64,000 nt of DNA, taken from NCBI RefSeq assembly GCF_009936375.1, contig NZ_AP022332.1:3566501-3630500 (forward strand), given 5' to 3'. Numbering within the stretch: position 1 is the first letter of the stretch; each line of letters begins with the position of its first letter. Shown here piece by piece: positions 125 through 24,932 of this stretch. The notes beneath the pieces were generated by a model that saw only the letters and a list, made by a program, of their open reading frames with translations, searched no databases and was not told where the DNA came from. This stretch comes from Methylosinus sp. C49 (GTDB taxonomy: Bacteria > Pseudomonadota > Alphaproteobacteria > Rhizobiales > Beijerinckiaceae). The position numbers were made by a program, and so were the translations under genes.

Positions 125-1141
125 CTAATTCTCGCTGGCCGCGACCACCTCCTGCTCGATCGCTCCGAAGATCGAATGGCCGGCGGAATCACGCATCTCG
201 ATGCGGATGCGGTCGCCCGGCTGCAAAAATCGCGTGCGCGCCGCGCCGCCGAGCAGGCTCTCGACGACGCGCTGCTCGGCGAGGCAGGAATAGCCCACCC
301 CGCCCTCGGCGATCGGCCTGCCCGGCCCGCCATCGGCCGCGCGATTTGACACTGTGCCGGAGCCGATGATGGCGCCGGCGCAAAGCGCGCGCGTGCGCGC
401 CGCATGGGCGATGAGGCGGCCGAAATCGAAGGTCATGTCGACGCCGGCGTCGGGCCGGCCGAGCGGCGCGCCATTGATGAAGGAGAGCAGCGGCGCGGAG
501 AGCGTCGCGCCGTCCCATGCAGCGCCGAGCTCGTCCGGCGTCACGGCGACGGGAGAAAAGGCCGAGGCGGGCTTGGATTGGAAAAAGCCGAACCCCTTGG
601 CCAGCTCGCTGGCCGTGAGGCCGCGCAAGGTCACGTCATTGGCCAGCATGACGAGCGCGACGCGCGCCCGCGCCGCTTCGGCGTCCAGGCCGAGCGGAAC
701 ATCGTCGGTTACGACGGCGACCTCCGCCTCGAGATCGAGGCCGAATATCTCGTCGAGAAAAGGGATGGGATCGCGCGGCCCCAGAAACCCGTCCGAGCCG
801 CCCTGATAGATGAGCGGATCGCTCCAAAAGGAGGGCGGCATCTCCACGCCGCGCGCCTTTCGCACCAGAGCGACGTGATTCACATAGGCCGAGCCGTCGG
901 CCCATTGATAGGCGCGCGGCAGCGGCGAAGCGCACTCATGCTCGCGAAAGCGAAAGGAGGGGATCAGCCCCGCCTCCAGCCGCTCGGCCAGCTCGGCGAG
1001 CGGCGGCGCGGCGCGCGGCCAATCATCCAGCGCCGCCTGCAGAGTGGGCGCGACCTCCGTCGCCTCCGCAGCGCGCGTCAAATCCCGCGAGACGACGACG
1101 AGCCTGCCATCGCGTCCGCCTTTCAAAGAAGCGAGCTTCAT
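125..1141 (-). CDS. Fumarylacetoacetate hydrolase family protein
   Basis: Predicted to catalyse the last step of tyrosine/homogentisate breakdown, splitting fumarylacetoacetate into fumarate and acetoacetate in the cytoplasm. The 338-residue protein starts MKLASLKGG and has the FAH-fold core. A metal-binding Glu-x-Glu lies in DLEAEVAVV, after the GGSDGFLGPRDPIPF segment. It lies 9 bp downstream of hmgA on the same strand, in a gene order hpd-hmgA-fah that makes the assignment strong. The short bacterial FAH form (about 330-340 aa) fits. Other FAH-superfamily hydrolases share the fold, so the substrate is inferred from context. Confidence 0.9.
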   Translation of the reverse strand: MKLASLKGGRDGRLVVVSRDLTRAAEATEVAPTLQAALDDWPRAAPPLAELAERLEAGLIPSFRFREHECASPLPRAYQWADGSAYVNHVALVRKARGVEMPPSFWSDPLIYQGGSDGFLGPRDPIPFLDEIFGLDLEAEVAVVTDDVPLGLDAEAARARVALVMLANDVTLRGLTASELAKGFGFFQSKPASAFSPVAVTPDELGAAWDGATLSAPLLSFINGAPLGRPDAGVDMTFDFGRLIAHAARTRALCAGAIIGSGTVSNRAADGGPGRPIAEGGVGYSCLAEQRVVESLLGGAARTRFLQPGDRIRIEMRDSAGHSIFGAIEQEVVAASEN

Positions 1142-1150
1142 CGCTTGTCC

Positions 1151-2449
1151 TCACGGCGTCCCGTCGAAGCGGCGCGCGAGCCCCGCCCAGCAATCGGCAT
1201 AGTCATTCTGATATGTCTCGAGCCGCGCGGCGTAGCGCGTCAAATGTTGCGGCAGCCGCGTCTCCAGCATGAAGGCGAGCGTGCCCTCGAGCTTTTGCGG
1301 GGCCAGCGCCTCCGCGCTCGCCTGCGCGAAGCTCTGCGCATCCGGCCCATGCGGCAGCATGCTGTTGTGCAGCGAGACGCCGCCGGGCGCGAACCCCTCC
1401 GCCTTGGCGTCATAGCGCCCGTAGATCAGCCCCATGAATTCGCTCATAACATTCATATGGAACCAGGGCGGACGAAACGTATGCTCGGCGACCAGCCAAC
1501 GCTCGGGGAAAATCAGAAAATCGATATTGGCCGTTCCCTCCCGCTCCGAGGGCGCCGTCAGCACGCAGAAGATCGATGGATCGGGATGGTCGAAGAGCAG
1601 CGCGCCGACCGGCGCGAAACGCCGAAGATCATATTTGTAGGGCGCGTAATCGCCGTGCCAGGCGACGACGTCGAGCGGCGAATGATCGAGCCCGCAGATG
1701 AAGAATTTGCCGCCCCATTTCACCGTGAGCCGGCACGGCCGCTCGGCGTCCCCGAAAGCCGCGACGGGCGTCTCGAAATCGCGGGCGTTGGCGAGGCAAT
1801 TGGCGCCGATCGGCCCGCGATTCGGCAGAGTGAAAGGCGCGCCGTAATTTTCGCACAGATAGCCGCGCGCCGGCCCTGTGACCAGCTCCGCCTTGAATTT
1901 CACGCCGCGCGGTAGGACGCCGATCTCGCCGGGCGCGATTTCCATCACGCCGAACTCGGTGACGAGGCGCAGCGCGCCCTTCTGCGGCAGCAGCAGCAAT
2001 TCGCCATCGGCGTCGTAGAAATAATCGTCGATCATGGAACGCGTGACGAAATAGAGCCCCGCCGCCATGCCGCTCTGCGCATCGGCGTCGCCGGCCGTCG
2101 TCATCATGCGCACGCCGGCGAGAAAAGTGAGCGCGCAATCGGGCATGGGCGGCGGCCCCCAGCGATAGCGGCCGAGCGGCAGATCATGCTCCTCGCGCGA
2201 CGGCGCGCTTTGCCAGAAGGGAAGCTCGAGCCGCTCGAAGCGCCCGACATGCCGCACGGAAGGGCGAATGCGATAGAGCCAGCTGCGCGTGTTGGCGCCG
2301 CGCGGCGCGGTGAAGGGCGAGCCCGACAATTGCTCCGCATAGAGCTTATACGGGCAATGCTGCGGCGAATTCTGCCCCACGGGAAGAGCGCCCGGCAGCG
2401 CCTCGCTGGCGAATTCATTGCCGAAGCCGGACATGTAGCGGAGCGTCAT
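1151..2449 (-). CDS. hmgA: Homogentisate 1,2-dioxygenase
   Basis: Opens the aromatic ring of homogentisate to maleylacetoacetate with a non-haem Fe(II). The 432-residue length is typical. The N-terminus ([25 protein letters not shown]) is diagnostic of the family. Candidate iron ligands are the His and Glu in [13 protein letters not shown] and the His in LPHGPD. It is the middle gene of the leftward catabolic unit, between hpd and the FAH gene; a repeat-containing spacer of 178 bp separates it from hpd. Confidence 0.96.
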
Positions 2450-2478
2450 GGCTAATCTCCGAATGGCGGCGCGCGCCC

Positions 2479-2606
2479 CACCCTCCCCTTTAGGGGGAGG
2501 GTCGGACCGCGAAGCGGTCCGGGGTGGGGTCGCTTCCCGAGATGCGGGCGCCCCCCCTCTCGCCCGCCTTCGGCGGTCGACCTCCCCCCTCGAGGGGGAG
2601 GTAGGG
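2479..2606. repeat. Palindromic intergenic repeats between hpd and hmgA
   Basis: The spacer holds several strong dyads: CCCTCCCC/GGGGGAGGG at about 2480-2500, CGGACCGC/GCGGTCCG just after it, and CCTCCCCC/GGGGGAGG near 2581-2602. They look like REP-type dispersed elements. Inside a transcribed spacer they could pause polymerase or protect RNA between the two dioxygenase genes; that role is inference. Confidence 0.55.
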
Positions 2607-2627
2607 TCCGCGCAGCGTCGAAACCCC

Positions 2628-3692
2628 TCACCCTCCCCCGCGCAGCACGCCGCGCTTCACCTGATCGTCCTCGATCGACTGGAACAGAGCGCGGAAATTT
2701 CCCTCGCCGAATCCCTCGTCGCCCTTGCGCTCGATGAACTCGAAGAAGATCGGCCCGATCACCGTCTTCGAGAAAATCTGCAGCAGCAGCTTGCGCCCCT
2801 CGCCGTCGATGAGAATGCCCAGCTCGCGCAATCGCTCCAGCCGCTCGCCATGGCCGGGAAGCCGCTCCTCGACGCGCGCGTAATAAGAATCCGGCGGCGC
2901 CGGCATGAATTGCAGCCCGCGCGCCCGCAGCGCCGTCACCGTGCGATAAATGTCGTCGCAGGCGCAGGCGACATGCTGAATGCCTTCTCCCCGATAAGCG
3001 ACGAGATATTCCTCGATCTGACTCTTGTCGTCGACGCTCTCGTTGATCGGAATTCGTATCTTCCCGCAGGGGCTGGTCATGGCGCGCGAATGCAGGCCGG
3101 TGAGCTTGCCCTCTATGTCGAAATAGCGAATTTGCCGAAAGGCGAAGAAGCGCTCGTACCACCCGGCCCATTCGTCCATATGGCCGCGATAGACATTATG
3201 GGTGAGGTGATCGATGACGGTGAGGCCGACGCCTTCTGGATGCGGATCGCGCGCGCCGGTCCAGCGAAAATCGACGTCGAAGATCGAGCCGCGCTCGCCA
3301 TAGCGATCGACGAGATAGATCAATGCGCCGCCGACGCCGACGAGCGCGGGAATCTTCAATTCCATCGGCCCGATCTTGGTCTCCGCCGCGCTCGCGCCCA
3401 AGGCGAGCGCGCGCTCATAGGCGACGCGCGCATCCGCCACGCGAAAGCCCATGGCGCAGGCGCAAGGCCCGTGCGCGCGGGCGAAATCCGCAGCGAAGCT
3501 GTCTGGCTCGGCGTTGAGCACATAATTCACGTCGCCCTGGCGATAGAGCGTCACATCCTTGGAGCGATGACGCGCGACGGCGACGAAGCCCATCTGCTCG
3601 AGCAGAGCCGCCAGCTTCGCCGGCTCGGGATGGGCGAACTCGACGAATTCGAAACCATCCGTCCCCATCGGATTTTCCGGCGAAGGCGACAT
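2628..3692 (-). CDS. hpd: 4-Hydroxyphenylpyruvate dioxygenase
   Basis: Converts 4-hydroxyphenylpyruvate to homogentisate, the entry step of the pathway encoded here. Two VOC-type halves are visible. Candidate Fe(II) ligands are the His of DHLTHNV, the His of [11 protein letters not shown] and the Glu of FFEFIERKG near the C-terminus. I chose the ATG at 3692 (354 aa, near the family length) because a perfect AAGGAGG ribosome site precedes it by about 6 nt; an upstream extension in frame to 3779 would overlap maiA and lacks such a site. It is divergent from maiA across 86 bp. Confidence 0.95.
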
Positions 3693-3778
3693 TGCGGCCT
3701 CCTTGCGAATGACGCACTCCTTCAACATATTGCGCGCGGCCAGCGATTCCAGAGCGGGCGGCGGCGGAGGCGACGACA

Positions 3779-4411
3779 ATGAAGCTCTATGACTATTTCC
3801 GCTCCTCGGCCGCCTATCGCGTGCGCATCGCGATCGAGCTGAAAGGCTTGGATGTCGAGCGCATCCCCGTGCATCTGGCGCGCGGCGAGCAACGCCGAGC
3901 CGATTATCTCGCGAAGAATCCGCAAGGCCTCGCGCCGGCGCTCGAGCTCGACAACGGGACCATCATCACCCAATCATTGGCGATCATCGATTATCTCGAC
4001 ACGCTCGCGCCGCAACCGCTGCTGACGCCGAAAGATCCGCTGCTCGCGGCCAAGGCGCGCGGAGTCGCGCTCGCCATCGCCTGCGACATTCATCCGCTCA
4101 ACAATCGCCGCGTGCTGGACTATTTGCGCGAACGGCTGGGGCAGGACGATTCCGGCGTCGACGCCTGGATCCATCATTGGGTTCTGCAGGGCGGGCTCGA
4201 GGCGGTGGAGCGGCTCGTCGAGCCCGGCCCCTTCTGCTTCGGCGCGCAGCCGACGATTGCCGATGTCTGCCTCGTGCCGCAGCTCTTCGCGGCGCGGCGC
4301 TTCTCGACGCCGCTCGAGACGCTGCCGAAGCTTCTCGCCGTGGAGGCGCATTGCCTCGCCCATCCGGCCTTCGCCGCGGCGGAGCCGTCGCGACAGGCGG
4401 ACGCCGAATAA
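3779..4411 (+). CDS. maiA: Maleylacetoacetate isomerase (zeta-class GST)
   Basis: Isomerises maleylacetoacetate to fumarylacetoacetate with glutathione. The protein has 210 residues. The N-terminal thioredoxin-like domain carries the zeta-class signature (YFRSSAAYRVRIA), followed by NPQGLAPALELDNG and TQSLAIIDYLD, then the all-helical GST domain. It is transcribed divergently from hpd, so one intergenic region probably controls the whole pathway hpd-hmgA-fah/maiA. No local regulator gene is visible. Confidence 0.95.
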   Translation: MKLYDYFRSSAAYRVRIAIELKGLDVERIPVHLARGEQRRADYLAKNPQGLAPALELDNGTIITQSLAIIDYLDTLAPQPLLTPKDPLLAAKARGVALAIACDIHPLNNRRVLDYLRERLGQDDSGVDAWIHHWVLQGGLEAVERLVEPGPFCFGAQPTIADVCLVPQLFAARRFSTPLETLPKLLAVEAHCLAHPAFAAAEPSRQADAE

Positions 4412-4585
4412 ATCCGACTAGACCTCGGCTTTTCGCCGCCGGCTCTGCGATGATCGAGCCTGTCACGCCCGCGCCGCCGCTCCATATGGCTTAGTGGCGA
4501 GGATGCGCCGTCGTGGGCGGCGCCGTTCCGCTTTTCGCCTTTTTCGTCGTCGACAAAGACCGTCGGAATCGATCGGAAGAACGTC

Positions 4586-5356
4586 ATGTCGCTTCGTCTG
4601 CGTCTCGTCCTCGGCGTCGCCGCTCTGCTCGCCAATGCGGGCTCTGCGACGGCGCAATATTATTTCTGGCCGGAGTCGACCCAGAACGGCGCGGCGGCCG
4701 ATCCCGACGCCGAGACGCAGCCGCGCCGCCAGCGCGCGCGCGCCAATTGGCCGTTCGACGAGGAGCGCCGCGAAGCTCCGCGAGCGCGCGGCAGGGAAAA
4801 TCGCGAGCGTGACAATCGCGACCGGGACCGCCTCGCCGCCCTGCCGCCGGACGCCGATCCGAATTATTCGACGCCGATCGATTATGACGACGATGTCGAC
4901 ATGCGGCAGACGCGGCGCCGTTTCATCGGCGACCCCACCGCCGAGGAGCCCGGCACGCTGACGATCGACACGCGCGCGCGGCGTCTCTATCTCTCGCTCG
5001 AGGACGGCAAGGCGGTGGAATATGCGATCGGCGTCGGCCGCACGGGCTTCGCCTGGAAGGGCGAGGCGAAGATCGGCCGCAAAGCCTTCTGGCCGGGCTG
5101 GACGCCGCCGCCGGAAATGCTGGAGCGCCGCCCCGATCTGCCCGAGCATATGGACGGGGGCTTGAGAAATCCGCTCGGCGCGCGGGCGCTGTATCTGTTC
5201 CAGGGGCAGAAGGACACTTTGTTCCGCATTCACGGAACCAATGAGCCGGAAAGCATAGGACGCGCGGTCTCTTCCGGCTGCATCCGCATGCTCAATGCGG
5301 ATGTGATCGATCTCTATAAGCGCGTCGCCAAAGGCGCCCGCGTCGTGGTGCGGTGA
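4586..5356 (+). CDS. L,D-transpeptidase (YkuD family), secreted
   Basis: Likely forms 3-3 peptidoglycan cross-links or attaches lipoproteins to peptidoglycan in the periplasm. The 256-residue protein has a signal peptide (cleavage near ATAQ), a low-complexity Arg/Asp-rich linker to about residue 110, and a YkuD domain starting at GTLTIDTRARRLYL. The catalytic block is present: HGTNEP followed by SSGCIRM, with Cys as nucleophile and a conserved His upstream. It ends one base before the convergent acyl-carrier-like gene. The exact reaction cannot be read from sequence. Confidence 0.9.
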   Translation: MSLRLRLVLGVAALLANAGSATAQYYFWPESTQNGAAADPDAETQPRRQRARANWPFDEERREAPRARGRENRERDNRDRDRLAALPPDADPNYSTPIDYDDDVDMRQTRRRFIGDPTAEEPGTLTIDTRARRLYLSLEDGKAVEYAIGVGRTGFAWKGEAKIGRKAFWPGWTPPPEMLERRPDLPEHMDGGLRNPLGARALYLFQGQKDTLFRIHGTNEPESIGRAVSSGCIRMLNADVIDLYKRVAKGARVVVR

Positions 5357-5647
5357 TCAAGCCGCCCGCGCGCGCGCCTCGGATTGGAGCAGATCGCCGA
5401 TGAGCGCGGCGATCGTCGCCATGGTCGCCATGCTGCGGCGCTGCAGCATGGACTTCGGAAACTCCACATCGAGCGCGGCCTCGAGCCACAGCATCACCTG
5501 AATGGCGCAGAAGGGCGAGAGCCCGGCGGCGTAGAGATCGGCCTCGGCGGCGAGGCTCGCCGCGGCGACCCGCAGACCGCCTTTGGCCTCTATGGCGCGG
5601 CGGATAATCTCGATCGACGTTTCGCTGCTGATGATTTCGGTCTTCAT
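5357..5647 (-). CDS. Acyl-carrier-protein-like small protein lacking the usual Ser
   Basis: This 96-residue protein has the size and pattern of a phosphopantetheine-binding carrier protein: helix 1 (SIEIIRRAIEAKGG), then DLYAAGL-S-P-F, helix 2 (AIQVMLWLEAALDVEFPKSML) and helix 3/4 (MATIAALIGDLL). In a normal carrier the motif reads GLDSL or GLTSF. Here it reads GLSPF, so Pro stands where the phosphopantetheine-bearing Ser should be and Ser is one place early. Start ATG at 5647 is chosen because homology-like sequence begins there. It converges with the L,D-transpeptidase gene. It may be a non-acylated relative. Confidence 0.7.
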   Translation of the reverse strand: MKTEIISSETSIEIIRRAIEAKGGLRVAAASLAAEADLYAAGLSPFCAIQVMLWLEAALDVEFPKSMLQRRSMATMATIAALIGDLLQSEARARAA

Positions 5648-11721: not shown

Positions 11722-13956
11722 TTGAAGCGGTCGCGGCGACGCAGGCCCGCCTATTTTCTCGCGACGGCCACGGCGGCCGTCGCCCTGCTCGCGATCGGCC
11801 GGCTGCAGCCGCCGGCCTTGGACGATCTGCGCAATTTCGTCTTCGACTCCTATCAGCGCCTCGCCCCACGCCCCTATGATCCCGGCCTTCCCGTGCGCGT
11901 GATCGCGGTGGATGAGGACAGCCTCGCCGCCTTCGGCCAATGGCCGTGGCCGCGCACGCGGCTCGCCACGCTGCTCGACAAGCTCGTCGAGGCGGGCGCG
12001 GCGGCCGTCGCCTTCGATATCGTCTTCGCCGAGACGGATCAGACCAGCCTCGATCATTATGCGCGAGGCCTGCCGGACGGCCCCGCCAAGACGCAGATCG
12101 CCACCATCGCCGCCGGCGCCATTCCCAATGATCGGATTTTCGCGCAGTCCATCGCCGCCGCTCCGGCGGCGCTCGGCCTCACCCTCTCGAGCGCCGGGCA
12201 AGAGCGCGCGCCGCCGCAAAAGGCGGGCGTCGCCATCGCCGGCGACGATCCCTCCGCCTTCCTCGCCGCCTTCCCCGCCGCTGTCGCGCCGATCGCGGAA
12301 CTGGCCGCGGCGGCGCGCGGCCTCGGCGCGACCAATTGGGCGCCCGATCGCGACGGCGTCGTGCGCCGCATTCCGCTGCTCGCCATAGGCCCCGGCGGCG
12401 GCGTCACGCCCTCCCTCGCGCTGGAGGCGCTACGCGTCGCCCAGGGCGCCTCGACGATCATCGTCCGCTCTTCCAACGCCAGCGGCGAAACCGCCTTCGG
12501 ACGCCAGACCGGCGTCAATGCGGTCAAGGTGGGCGCCTTCGAGATCGCCGTCGGCTCCATAGCGGATATTCGCCCACGCTATGGAGCCGAGGCGCCCCGG
12601 CGCATCGTCTCGGCGGCCGCAATTCTCGAGGATCGCGCGCCGCGCGACGAGATCGACGGGCGCATCATATTCATCGGCACCACCGCCGTCGGCCTCGGCG
12701 ATATTCGCGCGACGCCGCTGCAGCCGACCATTCCCGGCGTCGAGATTCATGCGCAAATTCTCGAATCGCTGCTCTCGGGCGCGCTGCTATCGAGGCCCGA
12801 TTGGGCCAATGGCCTCGAGCTCGTGGTCGCCGGCGCGGCATTCCTGCTCATCGCCGCGCTGCTGCCGCTGGTCGCGCCCTTGATCTCGGCGCTCGCCGCG
12901 ATCGGCTCGATCGGCGCGCTCTTCGCCGCGTCTTTCCTCGCTTTCGATCGCTACGGCCTGCTCGTCGACGCTGCTTTCCCCAGCCTCTCGGTCGCTCTCG
13001 CCTATGGCGTCGGCGCCGTGGCGTTATGGCGCCAAGATCAAGCTGCGCGGCGCCATGTGCATATGGCTTTCGGCAAATTCATCGCGCCCGCCGTCGTCGA
13101 GGGCCTCGTCGAGCACCCCGAGCGGCTGGTGCTCGGCGGCGAGACGCGCGAGCTCACCGTGCTGTTCTCCGATCTGCGCGATTTCTCGACCATCTCGGAG
13201 GGGCTGAGCGCGCAAGAGCTCACGCATTTCATGAACGCCTATCTGACGCCGATGACGGACGCCATTCTCGATCGCGAAGGCACGGTCGACAAATATATAG
13301 GCGACGCCATCATGGCGTTCTGGAATGCGCCGCTCGATATCGCCGATCATCCGCGCAAGGCTATTCGAGCCGCGCTCGATATGCGCGCGGCCATGGCGCG
13401 TTTCAACGACGAGCGCGCCGCCGAGGCGACGCGCGAAGGACGCGACTATCGCAAGGCGGCGATGGGCATAGGACTCAATCTGGGGCCTTGCAGCGTCGGC
13501 AATATGGGCTCGACGCGACGCTTCGACTATTCGATCCTCGGCGACGTGGTGAATCTCACGTCGCGGCTCGAAGGACTGTGTAAATGGTTTCGCGTGGATA
13601 TTCTCGTTTCCGGCGATTTGCGCGACGCCGCCGCGGGCTTCGCCTGGCTCGATCTCGGCGCGGCGCAAGTCGTCGGACGTTCGACGCCGACGCGCATCTA
13701 TGCGCTCGCCGGAGACGAGAGCTTTGCGGCGAGCCCGGCTTTCATGGCATGGCGTGACGAACATGTGAGGATGATGCGTTATCATGCCGAATGGGAATTC
13801 GCCCGCGCCCGCGTCGCAGCGGCGGAATTGAGGGCGTCCGTCGAATCGCATTGGAGTGGTTGCTATATGGCTATGGAACAGCGATTTGCAGCCTTCGAGG
13901 CGGCTCCCCCCATGCGGAACGGAGGCGCGCCCATTTGGAAGATGGACAGCAAATGA
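11722..13956 (+). CDS. CHASE2-domain class III adenylate/guanylate cyclase
   Basis: A membrane sensor cyclase of 744 residues. It starts at TTG, backed by a perfect AGGAGG five bases upstream. After an N-terminal membrane anchor comes an extracytoplasmic CHASE2 region (residues about 40-350), three hydrophobic segments (about 365-440) and a cytoplasmic cyclase domain. Catalytic residues are all visible: the metal Asp in VLFSDLRDFS and GDAIMAF, Lys in TVDKYIGD, and Asn/Arg in NLTSRLEG. The Lys suggests ATP as substrate. It shares a region with a Crp-family regulator and overlaps the HD-domain gene by ATGA. Confidence 0.92.
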   Translation: MKRSRRRRPAYFLATATAAVALLAIGRLQPPALDDLRNFVFDSYQRLAPRPYDPGLPVRVIAVDEDSLAAFGQWPWPRTRLATLLDKLVEAGAAAVAFDIVFAETDQTSLDHYARGLPDGPAKTQIATIAAGAIPNDRIFAQSIAAAPAALGLTLSSAGQERAPPQKAGVAIAGDDPSAFLAAFPAAVAPIAELAAAARGLGATNWAPDRDGVVRRIPLLAIGPGGGVTPSLALEALRVAQGASTIIVRSSNASGETAFGRQTGVNAVKVGAFEIAVGSIADIRPRYGAEAPRRIVSAAAILEDRAPRDEIDGRIIFIGTTAVGLGDIRATPLQPTIPGVEIHAQILESLLSGALLSRPDWANGLELVVAGAAFLLIAALLPLVAPLISALAAIGSIGALFAASFLAFDRYGLLVDAAFPSLSVALAYGVGAVALWRQDQAARRHVHMAFGKFIAPAVVEGLVEHPERLVLGGETRELTVLFSDLRDFSTISEGLSAQELTHFMNAYLTPMTDAILDREGTVDKYIGDAIMAFWNAPLDIADHPRKAIRAALDMRAAMARFNDERAAEATREGRDYRKAAMGIGLNLGPCSVGNMGSTRRFDYSILGDVVNLTSRLEGLCKWFRVDILVSGDLRDAAAGFAWLDLGAAQVVGRSTPTRIYALAGDESFAASPAFMAWRDEHVRMMRYHAEWEFARARVAAAELRASVESHWSGCYMAMEQRFAAFEAAPPMRNGGAPIWKMDSK

Positions 13957-21637: not shown

Positions 21638-21922
21638 TGATCCTCTTGAAATCTCTTAGGCCTGCGCGGCGGGGGCTCGGACGGATCGCGACGATCCGCG
21701 GCGTGCAATAGAGGATGTGGACGACGCCACCTTCCGGCCATGCTCGGAGATCAGGGTAAAGGCGTCGTTAACGTGAGCCTCGCCGTCGGGAGGAATCCAA
21801 AGGCCGGGGACGGGAAAAGCTCCTGTGCGGCTCGCGACCAGGCGGCCTGCGACTTGCATTTTTTCCGTTCCGTGCCCGATATTCGGCGAAGCGCCCTTCA
21901 TCCTCAACTCCCGGTTCGAACC

Positions 21923-23773
21923 ATGCCGCATCTTCACGCCCGCGTCCAAGGCCCCCTTCGCGACTCCGTCTCCGAGGCTCAGGCCGGCGGCCCCGGCTCC
22001 GCGCTCCCCGAATGGAATCTCGCCGACCTCTACGCCGCGCCGGATTCGCCGGCGCTGGCCGCCGACATTGCGGCGGCGGAGAAGGAGGCCTCAGCCTTCG
22101 CAGCCGAGCTGCGCGGCCGCCTGAGCGAATTGGCGGGCGGCGCGGCGGCGAGCGAGACGCTCGGCGAGGCCGTGCGGCGCTATGAGGCGCTACAGGACCT
22201 GTTGGGCCGAATCATGTCCTATGCGGGACTGATCTACGCCGGCGACACCACCGATCCGGCCCGCGCCAAATTCTATGGCGACATTCAGGACAAGATCACT
22301 GAAATCTCCACGCAATTGCTGTTCTTCCAGCTCGAGCTGAACCGTATCGACGACGCAATTCTGGACGCCGCCGCGGCGACGGCGCCGCTCGCGCATTGGA
22401 AGCCCTGGCTCGAAGATATTCGGATGGAGAAGCCCTATGAGCTCTCCGACGAGCTGGAGCGGCTCTTCCACGAAAAATCCGCCACCGGCCGCGCGGCCTG
22501 GAACCGCCTCTTCGACGAGACCATCGCCTCGCTGCGCTTCTCGATCGGCGGCAAGGAGCTGACGATCGAGCCTGCGCTCAATCTAATGCAGGATTCGCGC
22601 GAGGAGGTGCGACGCGAAGCCGCGCTCGCCGTCGGCGCGACGCTGAAGGCCAATCTGCGCACCTTCGCGCTCGTCACCAACACGCTGGCCAAGGACAAGG
22701 AGATCGGCGATCGTTGGCGCGGCTTCGAGGATGTCGCCGACTCGCGCCATCTCTCCAACCGCGTCGAGCCGGAGGTGGTCGCGGCTCTGGTGGAGAGCGT
22801 GACGAAAGCGCATCCGCGGCTCTCGCATCGCTATTACAAGCTCAAGGCCAAATGGTTCGGCAAGGAGGCGCTGGATTATTGGGACCGCAACGCGCCGCTG
22901 CCCTCCGTGCCTTCGCACAATTATAGCTGGGACGAGGCGCGCGACATCGTTCTCACCGCCTATTCGGGCTTCGCGCCGCAAATGGCGGAGATCGCCTCGC
23001 GCTTCTTCGACAAGAGCTGGATCGACGCGCCGGTGCGGCCGGGCAAGGCGCCGGGCGCCTTCGCGCATCCGACCGTGCCCTCCGCGCATCCTTATGTGCT
23101 GGTCAATTTCCAGGGCAAGACGCGCGATGTGATGACGCTGGCCCATGAGCTCGGCCATGGCGTGCATCAGGTGCTGGCCTCGCGCCAAGGCGCGCTGATG
23201 GCGCCGACGCCGCTGACGCTCGCCGAGACGGCCTCCGTCTTCGGCGAGATGCTGACCTTCCGCTCGCTATTGGCGCAAACGACCGACATCGAGAAGAAAC
23301 GCGCGCTGCTCGCCGCCAAAGTGGAGGATATGCTCAACACTGTGGTGCGGCAGATCGCCTTCTATTCCTTCGAGCGCAAGGTCCATACCGAGCGCAAGAA
23401 TGGCGAACTGACCGCCGACAAGCTCTGCGAGCTGTGGATGAGCGTGCAGAGCGACAGTCTCGGCCCGGCCATCCGGCTCGGCGAAGGCTATGAATCCTTC
23501 TGGGCCTATATTCCGCATTTCGTGCATTCGCCTTTCTATGTCTACGCCTACGCCTTCGGCGATTGTCTCGTGAACTCGCTCTATGGCGTCTATCAAAAGG
23601 CGGAGACGGGTTTCGCCGAGCGTTATTTCGGCCTGCTCGAGGCCGGCGGCGCCAAGCCCTACAATGAGCTGCTCGCGCCCTTCGGCCTGGATGCGCGCGA
23701 TCCGGCTTTTTGGGGCATAGGGCTCGAGATGATCGAGGGGCTGATCGCGGAGCTGGAGGCGATGGAGAGGTAG
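21923..23773 (+). CDS. pepF: M3-family oligoendopeptidase F
   Basis: Zinc metallopeptidase that cleaves small peptides in the cytoplasm. The 616-residue protein (start ATG at 21923, just before LPEWNLADLYA) has the HELGHGVHQ zinc motif and the family block SVFGEMLTF that supplies the third ligand. It belongs to the M3B group. Its stop lies 27 bp before the paired-TIR cassette on the same strand, so read-through transcription into that cassette is possible. Confidence 0.93.
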   Translation: MPHLHARVQGPLRDSVSEAQAGGPGSALPEWNLADLYAAPDSPALAADIAAAEKEASAFAAELRGRLSELAGGAAASETLGEAVRRYEALQDLLGRIMSYAGLIYAGDTTDPARAKFYGDIQDKITEISTQLLFFQLELNRIDDAILDAAAATAPLAHWKPWLEDIRMEKPYELSDELERLFHEKSATGRAAWNRLFDETIASLRFSIGGKELTIEPALNLMQDSREEVRREAALAVGATLKANLRTFALVTNTLAKDKEIGDRWRGFEDVADSRHLSNRVEPEVVAALVESVTKAHPRLSHRYYKLKAKWFGKEALDYWDRNAPLPSVPSHNYSWDEARDIVLTAYSGFAPQMAEIASRFFDKSWIDAPVRPGKAPGAFAHPTVPSAHPYVLVNFQGKTRDVMTLAHELGHGVHQVLASRQGALMAPTPLTLAETASVFGEMLTFRSLLAQTTDIEKKRALLAAKVEDMLNTVVRQIAFYSFERKVHTERKNGELTADKLCELWMSVQSDSLGPAIRLGEGYESFWAYIPHFVHSPFYVYAYAFGDCLVNSLYGVYQKAETGFAERYFGLLEAGGAKPYNELLAPFGLDARDPAFWGIGLEMIEGLIAELEAMER

Positions 23774-23800: not shown

Positions 23801-24211
23801 GTGACATATTCGATCTTCGTTTCCCACGGCTGGCATGATCGATGGGTGGCCAGACAAATGGCGCGTTCGATCTCCGATGCGGGAGGCGCGCCATTCATCG
23901 ACATATTCGACATCAAGAAGGGCGACCGTATCGAAGAACGCGTCCGCACGGGGATCGAGCACTGCGCCGAGCTGGTCGCCCTGCTCACGCCCTGGTCGGT
24001 CGGCCGCAATTGGGTCTGGACCGAGGTCGCCGCCGCCTGGGCGTTGAAAAAGCGCTTCGTCGGGGTGACCTATGGCGTGACGATCGAGGAAATCGAAAGG
24101 AATCACGGCGGGATGGCCTGTCTCGGCCCGACCAATGTCGTTGCCCTCGACGACTTCGACGCATACATTCGGGAGCTGGCCGAGCGCATCCATTCGGGAG
24201 ATCGCGAATGA
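23801..24211 (+). CDS. TIR-domain protein 1
   Basis: A stand-alone TIR domain of 136 residues starting at GTG. The fold markers are clear: strand A YSIFVSHGWHD, the BB-loop region IDIFDIKKGDRIEERV and strand-helix D segment LVALLTPWSVGRNWVWTEVAAAWA. Glu75 in NWVWTE sits where NAD-cleaving TIR proteins carry their catalytic Glu. No other domain is attached. Its stop overlaps the ATG of a second, different TIR gene (ATGA). In bacteria such proteins often act in anti-phage immunity as NADases or signal makers; which applies here is unknown. Confidence 0.85.
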   Translation: MTYSIFVSHGWHDRWVARQMARSISDAGGAPFIDIFDIKKGDRIEERVRTGIEHCAELVALLTPWSVGRNWVWTEVAAAWALKKRFVGVTYGVTIEEIERNHGGMACLGPTNVVALDDFDAYIRELAERIHSGDRE

Positions 24212-24591
24212 AGCTTTTCATTTCCTACAGCCATGGAGACGAGCCCTTCGCCCGCTCCTTGCGCGAGGGACTCGAGCGAATGGGCGTCTGCGTGATCGAT
24301 CCCGCGATCAGCACGCGCCCAGGAGATTCGCTCGGTCAAGCGCTGCGGCAGGCGATCGACGAATCCGACGCGGCGATCCTCGTCATTCCCGAGTCCGGCT
24401 CCAACGGAGCGAATTTGGCGTTTTTCGAAGCCGGCGCGGCCAAAGCGCTGGGCAAGCGGCTCTTTGTCGTCATGCCAGGCGCCGGAGACCGCGAGATGCC
24501 CTCGATCGCAGATTTCGCCATTCTCGACGCGTCGCGAAAGTCGTCCGACGAAGTCGCAAAAACACTCGTCCACGCGCTCGCAGCGGCATAG
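24208..24591 (+). CDS. TIR-domain protein 2
   Basis: A second stand-alone TIR domain, 127 residues: strand A KLFISYSHGDEPFARSL, BB-loop region ISTRPGDSLGQALRQAI, then AAILVIPESGSNGANLAFFEAGAAKALGKRLFVVM. Glu74 in LAFFEAGAA is the candidate catalytic residue. It is only weakly similar to the upstream TIR protein, so the pair is not a simple duplication. It is coupled to that gene by a 4-base overlap and is followed 9 bp later by a small coiled-coil/membrane gene. Confidence 0.84.
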   Translation: MKLFISYSHGDEPFARSLREGLERMGVCVIDPAISTRPGDSLGQALRQAIDESDAAILVIPESGSNGANLAFFEAGAAKALGKRLFVVMPGAGDREMPSIADFAILDASRKSSDEVAKTLVHALAAA

Positions 24592-24600
24592 GACCGTTCG

Positions 24601-24801
24601 ATGCGCGCGCCGACCGAAGCGATTGCGACCAAAACCGATCTGTCGGCGCTTCAGATGGAATTGCGCGCTTTTGAGCAGAAGCTCGAAGCCAAGATCGCGA
24701 CCACGGCCGCCGATTTGAAGGTCGATATTCTCCGCTGGCTGATCGTGACTCAGCTCGCCCTCGGCGGCTTCCCGTTCGCCGCGATGAAGTTCACGCGCTG
24801 A
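24601..24801 (+). CDS. Small coiled-coil protein with C-terminal membrane segment
   Basis: A 66-residue protein resembling the DUF1640/XhlA-like pattern: an N-terminal coiled coil (ATKTDLSALQMELRAFEQKLEAKIATTAADLK) followed by one membrane helix (LRWLIVTQLALGGFPFAAM) and a short basic tail. An AGGA site overlaps the end of TIR gene 2. As the third gene of the cassette it could anchor or oligomerise the TIR proteins at the membrane; that is inference. Confidence 0.65.
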   Translation: MRAPTEAIATKTDLSALQMELRAFEQKLEAKIATTAADLKVDILRWLIVTQLALGGFPFAAMKFTR

Positions 24802-24815
24802 AGCGGGAGCCGCAC

Positions 24816-24932
24816 TCACTCAACATTCTGCGCGATCCGCCATAGCACGCTTGACGGATAGAAGCGCTTTGAGAGCTCATAATCCTTCGCCGGCACGAAG
24901 GCCTTCAATTCGATCGTTTGCAAATTCGACAT
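24816..24932 (-). pseudogene. Remnant of a VOC/glyoxalase-family gene with internal deletion
   Basis: A 38-codon frame begins like an intact VOC-family gene (SNLQTIELKAFVPAKDYELSKRFY) and then jumps directly to what looks like the usual C-terminal end of such proteins (SSVLWRIAQNVE, stop). A full gene would be about 120-140 codons, so roughly 300 bp appear to be missing from the middle. It lies immediately downstream of the TIR cassette and points toward it. I read it as a deletion scar. Confidence 0.65.

Follow-up and report, generated by a model that had tools for sequence, protein, structure and literature searches.

The locus studied here raises the question of what two bare TIR domains, encoded next to each other in Methylosinus sp. 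C49, might accomplish together, since known bacterial TIR immunity, to our knowledge, relies on a partner for the TIR, either a dedicated sensor domain or a separate effector. The genes lie in a window of 64,000 nucleotides (the whole stretch of DNA analysed, to which all unlabelled coordinates refer). On the forward strand, TIR1 (23801-24211; 136 aa, GTG start) overlaps TIR2 (24208-24591; 127 aa) by the four bases ATGA (24208-24211), and an ORF of 66 aa (24601-24801, same strand) follows after a gap of 9 bp, exactly as given in a preliminary description that considered the three genes as a cassette of two TIRs with a small membrane partner. The start codons of TIR1 and TIR2 match those of their homologues.

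Both products are bare TIR_2 domains (Pfam PF13676), scoring 55.7 bits for TIR1 and 47.2 bits for TIR2 against a curated cut-off of 28, while PADLOC and NCBIfam retrieved only sub-domain similarities. In profile comparisons with solved structures, the two proteins match best to TIRs from bacteria, among them AbTir, BtpA/TcpB and PdTIR. A Glu had been noted in each protein at the position of the NAD-cleaving residue, and the alignments agree: the putative catalytic residues Glu75 of TIR1 and Glu74 of TIR2, the latter in a FEAGAAKALGK helix, fall on the Glu that is catalytic in AbTir and BtpA. A Trp (Trp71) four residues ahead of Glu75 is likewise retained in TIR1. Across the 13 pairs that were aligned, Glu75 is invariant, and Glu74 is lost only once, in the most distant pair, from genome G044. 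Judging from their sequences, both proteins would be TIR domains of the kind able to cleave or cyclise NAD+, with catalysis here putative.

The association of the two genes is strict. From a family set of 295 genomes (f36, which contains Rhodopseudomonas rhenobacensis and therefore corresponds to Xanthobacteraceae or Nitrobacteraceae), a TIR1 profile retrieved six strong matches to short ORFs (E ≤ 5.8e-48), and an independent TIR2 profile retrieved strong short-ORF matches (E ≤ 9.5e-19) in the identical six genomes; the chance of two random sets of six genomes being identical is about 1e-12, when kinship between genomes is ignored. Likewise, TIR1 and TIR2 occur in the same five of ten Methylosinus genomes. 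Both are also present in G011, from another genus of the same family as Methylosinus, and in a metagenome-assembled genome (L014), and a related locus (L013) belongs to Methylosinus sp. Ce-a6, the record of genome G005. Even in G044, from another family and with only 26% identity, the two genes are arranged in this way and overlap by four bases. In the loci that were read to the end, TIR2 starts inside the end of TIR1 or at most 12 bp past its stop codon, and every intact TIR1 on a contig that continues is directly followed by TIR2, usually overlapping it. An intact TIR1 lacking its partner was not encountered in the 295 f36 genomes, the ten Methylosinus genomes or the loci read. There are, however, broken copies: in G1014, TIR1 is frameshifted and TIR2 is intact, and in the metagenome-assembled genome with locus L016 a stop codon interrupts TIR1 and the contig ends ahead of any TIR2 position. 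Other TIR_2 matches were inspected in 120 relatives, where adjacent pairs on the same strand are essentially limited to the TIR1-TIR2 family, plus one fused protein. The latter, of 246 aa (L055:4401-5141, in G046), consists of two TIR domains in tandem; it was set aside, as its homology to the pair is not established.

The two genes also share their history. Distance matrices of TIR1 and TIR2 are strongly correlated (Mantel r 0.88 for 13 pairs, and 0.83 for the 10 pairs left after removing near copies), and TIR2 diverges faster than TIR1 in 45 of 45 comparisons. TIR1 has a dN/dS of 0.03-0.15 among Methylosinus strains, and TIR2 one of 0.07-0.16; this purifying selection, together with the conserved pairing, excludes a chance association. 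The TIR2 profile also picks up TIR1, with E values down to 8e-16, and the pair may therefore stem from an old tandem duplication. In all, TIR1-TIR2 is a genuine, obligate two-gene pair, found in scattered soil and methane-eating bacteria.

An obligate, translationally coupled pair of which intact TIR1 is never found alone is also what might be expected of a toxin and its antitoxin, with TIR1 as an intrinsically active NADase, TIR2 capping its filament or active site, and a trigger that removes TIR2 setting TIR1 free. The frameshift in TIR1 of G1014, which leaves TIR2 intact, goes in the direction expected if TIR1 is costly, and the lineage of G044 dispenses with the Glu of TIR2. Nevertheless, a pure inhibitor would not need this Glu, which is otherwise kept under purifying selection, and TIR1 leads the operon, whereas antitoxins more often come first; we consider this arrangement unlikely.

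The 66-aa ORF does not share in this pairing, so that the co-occurrence proposed for the three genes stands for TIR1 and TIR2, in the same six of 295 and five of ten genomes, and fails for the third, which is missing in other lineages. Each Methylosinus genome tested, whether or not it has the TIRs, contains between one and nine relatives of its product, mostly longer open frames, and small coiled-coil/TM genes of this CCDC90-like type are scattered over the genus in many copies (L065-L081). One of them, a 99-codon version, lies directly downstream of pepF in G008, a genome that lacks the TIRs. The alignment with the ORF of the window starts inside the G008 gene, and the N-terminal third is missing from the window ORF; what the latter matches in this CCDC90-like (PF07798) protein of G008 is the C-terminal two thirds. 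Against this Pfam family the ORF reaches an E value of 0.059, and the full-length G008 homologue one of 3.5e-7 (30.7 bits, slightly below the cut-off of 33.5). Moreover, beside the pair the gene is confined to three closely related Methylosinus genomes; it is precisely missing in G003 (equivalent to window positions 24599-24789), whose TIRs are 95-97% identical, and was not found beside the pair in other lineages at the loci read. The truncated ORF shows a dN/dS of 0.12-0.21 in three genomes, and the protein may still be made. We rejected it as a member of the cassette because of its scattered copies, its absence from G003 and other lineages, and its occurrence at the corresponding site of G008, where TIRs are lacking, and judge it to be a 5'-truncated passenger outside the TIR module rather than the small membrane partner first proposed. 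No other conserved third gene takes its place at the loci read, where the genes after TIR2 are unrelated and non-conserved.

The gene upstream of the pair, pepF (M3 oligoendopeptidase F; 21740-23773, forward strand), ends 27 bp before TIR1 and is possibly co-transcribed with it. It was found in ten of ten genomes searched, including those without the pair, and is therefore a housekeeping gene. It neighbours the pair in five lineages, with the order pepF-TIR1-TIR2 seen also in G011, G846, G044 and G870; hardly any gap separates pepF from TIR1 in G011 and G846. When the pairs are arranged in a tree, those linked to pepF fall close to its base and surround the rest, which suggests that this site may be the ancestral position, although branch support is weak and the root is arbitrary. 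Elsewhere, the pair is located beside glyA (two or three genomes; G878, G1051) or between proA and nadD (G004). In G870, intact pepF is separated from TIR1 by a phosphonate ABC-transport operon (L114, reverse complement, about 500-5560), and the last ~130 bp of pepF recur, nearly identical, beside TIR1, which suggests an insertion at the gene's 3' end. The spot downstream of pepF exchanges cargo, as its contents differ in other Methylosinus genomes: a CRISPR-like array in G009, an unassigned ORF in G001 and the CCDC90-like gene in G008. The array is short, with at least five repeat copies spaced 73 bp apart, and lies directly downstream of pepF (L095, reverse complement, about 497-824). In the window, the passenger ORF is followed by a remnant of a glyoxalase-like gene (24816-24932, reverse strand) with an internal deletion of ~250 bp; the gene is intact in G003, and the deleted stretch is present in G002 and G008. 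Further genes downstream of the pair encode ROK, pentapeptide and OmpA-family proteins.

These housekeeping surroundings in several lineages, the tight pepF spacing in two of them, and the lack of a defence island or of phage-borne copies would fit an ordinary metabolic or regulatory role that does not involve phages, for instance as a redox- or NAD-responsive switch for pepF or other housekeeping genes. Presence of the pair is nonetheless very patchy, even among close relatives (five of ten Methylosinus and six of 295 f36 genomes), copies are broken in G1014 and L016, and pepF occurs alone in every pair-less genome tested. Together, these features suggest an accessory function, and make a metabolic role decidedly unlikely.

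Searches for partners were consistent with a pair that stands alone. The preliminary description considered an enrichment near defence genes, which did not materialise, the neighbours being housekeeping genes. A scan of ten window neighbours revealed no dedicated defence gene, and the ORFs read beside the pair at other loci included none either; the PADLOC matches in the window are to an AAA of FtsH type and to a cyclase domain at a distance of 7-10 kb, the cyclase-like match being at 11722-13956. Adjacent genes contain neither a CBASS or Pycsar cyclase nor a cyclic-nucleotide-sensing domain, and no effector of ThsA type (SIR2-SLOG, macro-TM or caspase-like) lies beside any copy of the pair that was read. 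A bare TIR-TIR pair was indeed proposed to match no catalogued defence system, and this holds: the TIR1-TIR2 module is absent from the defence library that we searched. Homologues of TIR1 and TIR2 were not found in viral contigs, nor those of TIR1 in phage genomes; plasmids yielded distant matches for TIR1 only, and none for TIR2. Two plasmid loci contain several TIR genes. In Sinorhizobium chiapasense (L018:2758-5912), a ThsB-type TIR, a caspase-domain protein, a TIR and a larger TIR protein form a cluster that resembles type IV Thoeris but has additional TIR genes. On pCMU01 of Methylorubrum extorquens (L017:1557-5945), the genes for a TIR, a SLOG-cluster2 protein, a ThsB-type TIR and another, larger TIR protein lie in a row, with the SLOG-cluster2 protein as a candidate effector of this multi-TIR locus. 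An anti-phage role for TIR1-TIR2 is plausible in view of TIR biology and of its patchy distribution, rather than of any defence-island context.

An effector might be encoded elsewhere, in a split Thoeris where the pair would act in trans by producing an ADPR-type messenger, or else TIR2 might convert or clear the product of TIR1. In favour of this, TIR1 reaches 22.2 bits with the Pfam family ThsB_TIR (PF08937), barely above the cut-off of 21.2 and far below its TIR_2 score, and TIR2 is unlisted. A search of the whole genome for STALD domains, which might reveal an orphan ThsA, gave no match, although control genomes were equally silent. TIR2, for its part, shows a weak similarity to nucleoside deoxyribosyltransferases in Pfam searches; FEAGAA-type helices also occur in these enzymes. 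Structural claims are confined to TIR2, whose AlphaFold model has a pLDDT of 79, as the TIR1 model was built from four sequences and has a pLDDT of 37. The TIR2 model matches the NADase TIRs AbTir, SPARTA and SARM1 with Z of about 13-14, and fits DNPH1 and nucleoside deoxyribosyltransferases about equally well, which makes a second N-glycosidase step conceivable. On the other hand, ThsA-type effectors are lacking beside every copy read, and the TIR1 homologue of G011 has the motif EIGAARALGK, as TIR2 does, so that the motif marks no separate role for TIR2. Either form of signalling is, in our opinion, improbable.

We favour, tentatively and at a little less than an even chance, the view that the pair forms a minimal TIR immune module, with both proteins as obligate subunits, that has no effector and destroys NAD+ when triggered. 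Put more broadly, it would be a heteromeric unit complete in itself, working as a TIR NADase or producing a signal. The trigger in known TIR systems is usually a phage structural protein. The two proteins would be made together by translational coupling behind pepF. As the active site of TIR NADases is a composite of two neighbouring TIR subunits (PMC12847820), TIR1, with its strongly conserved Trp71 and Glu75, would most likely be the catalytic subunit, and TIR2, which diverges faster and has lost its Glu in G044, would most likely be the trigger-sensing partner that completes or restrains the assembly. Upon triggering, a mixed assembly in which TIR1 and TIR2 would be in contact would destroy NAD+, and the infection would be aborted; in the absence of a nearby effector, the killing step would be the NAD+ loss itself. 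It is also possible that one TIR makes a signal to which the other responds, or that they form a mixed filament. Several observations argue against an immune module: the housekeeping loci, the absence of recognised defence neighbours and of phage or viral homologues, the loss of the Glu from TIR2 of G044, and the TIR2 model, which fits nucleoside deoxyribosyltransferases about as well as NADase TIRs. If the immune reading is true, TIR1-TIR2, being an obligate pair of bare domains, would represent the smallest bacterial TIR immune module, a clean two-protein system for examining what switches TIR assemblies on and whether bacteria possess mixed TIR active sites, and an entry missing from the defence library searched.

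How, then, does the pair compare with known systems? AbTir and BtpA/TcpB are among the closest solved relatives of both proteins, with their catalytic Glu aligned, but were studied as single proteins, unlike the TIR1-TIR2 pair, and we know of no paired TIR gene for either. In a literature search for systems with two TIRs and no effector, the only case found was that of ThsB1, ThsB2 and ThsA from the staphylococcal type I Thoeris, which resembles our pair in having two different, cooperating TIR proteins in one operon. This system requires both ThsB1, the sensor, and ThsB2, the enzyme; ThsB1 binds the phage capsid and recruits ThsB2, its own catalytic residues being dispensable (PMC11312562). 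Such a precedent argues for a split between sensor and enzyme, in which TIR1 would compare with ThsB2 and TIR2 with ThsB1. We regard as somewhat doubtful the more specific proposal of a self-sufficient heteromeric immune module, devoid of a separate sensor domain and of a downstream effector, whose composite NADase would be divided between two bare TIRs, one for sensing or regulation and one for catalysis. Staphylococcal Thoeris differs in its effector ThsA, which the TIR1-TIR2 pair does not have beside it, and in size, as the Glu at the catalytic position of ThsB1 is residue 318, indicating a larger protein than the bare TIRs of ~130 aa described here; the likeness is by description and not by alignment. 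Finally, SpbK and other single-protein TIR NADases kill by NAD+ hydrolysis, with an active site between two TIR subunits (PMC12847820), as proposed for the pair; SpbK, however, is one gene with its own sensor domain, whereas TIR1 and TIR2 are two sensor-less genes that form an obligate pair.
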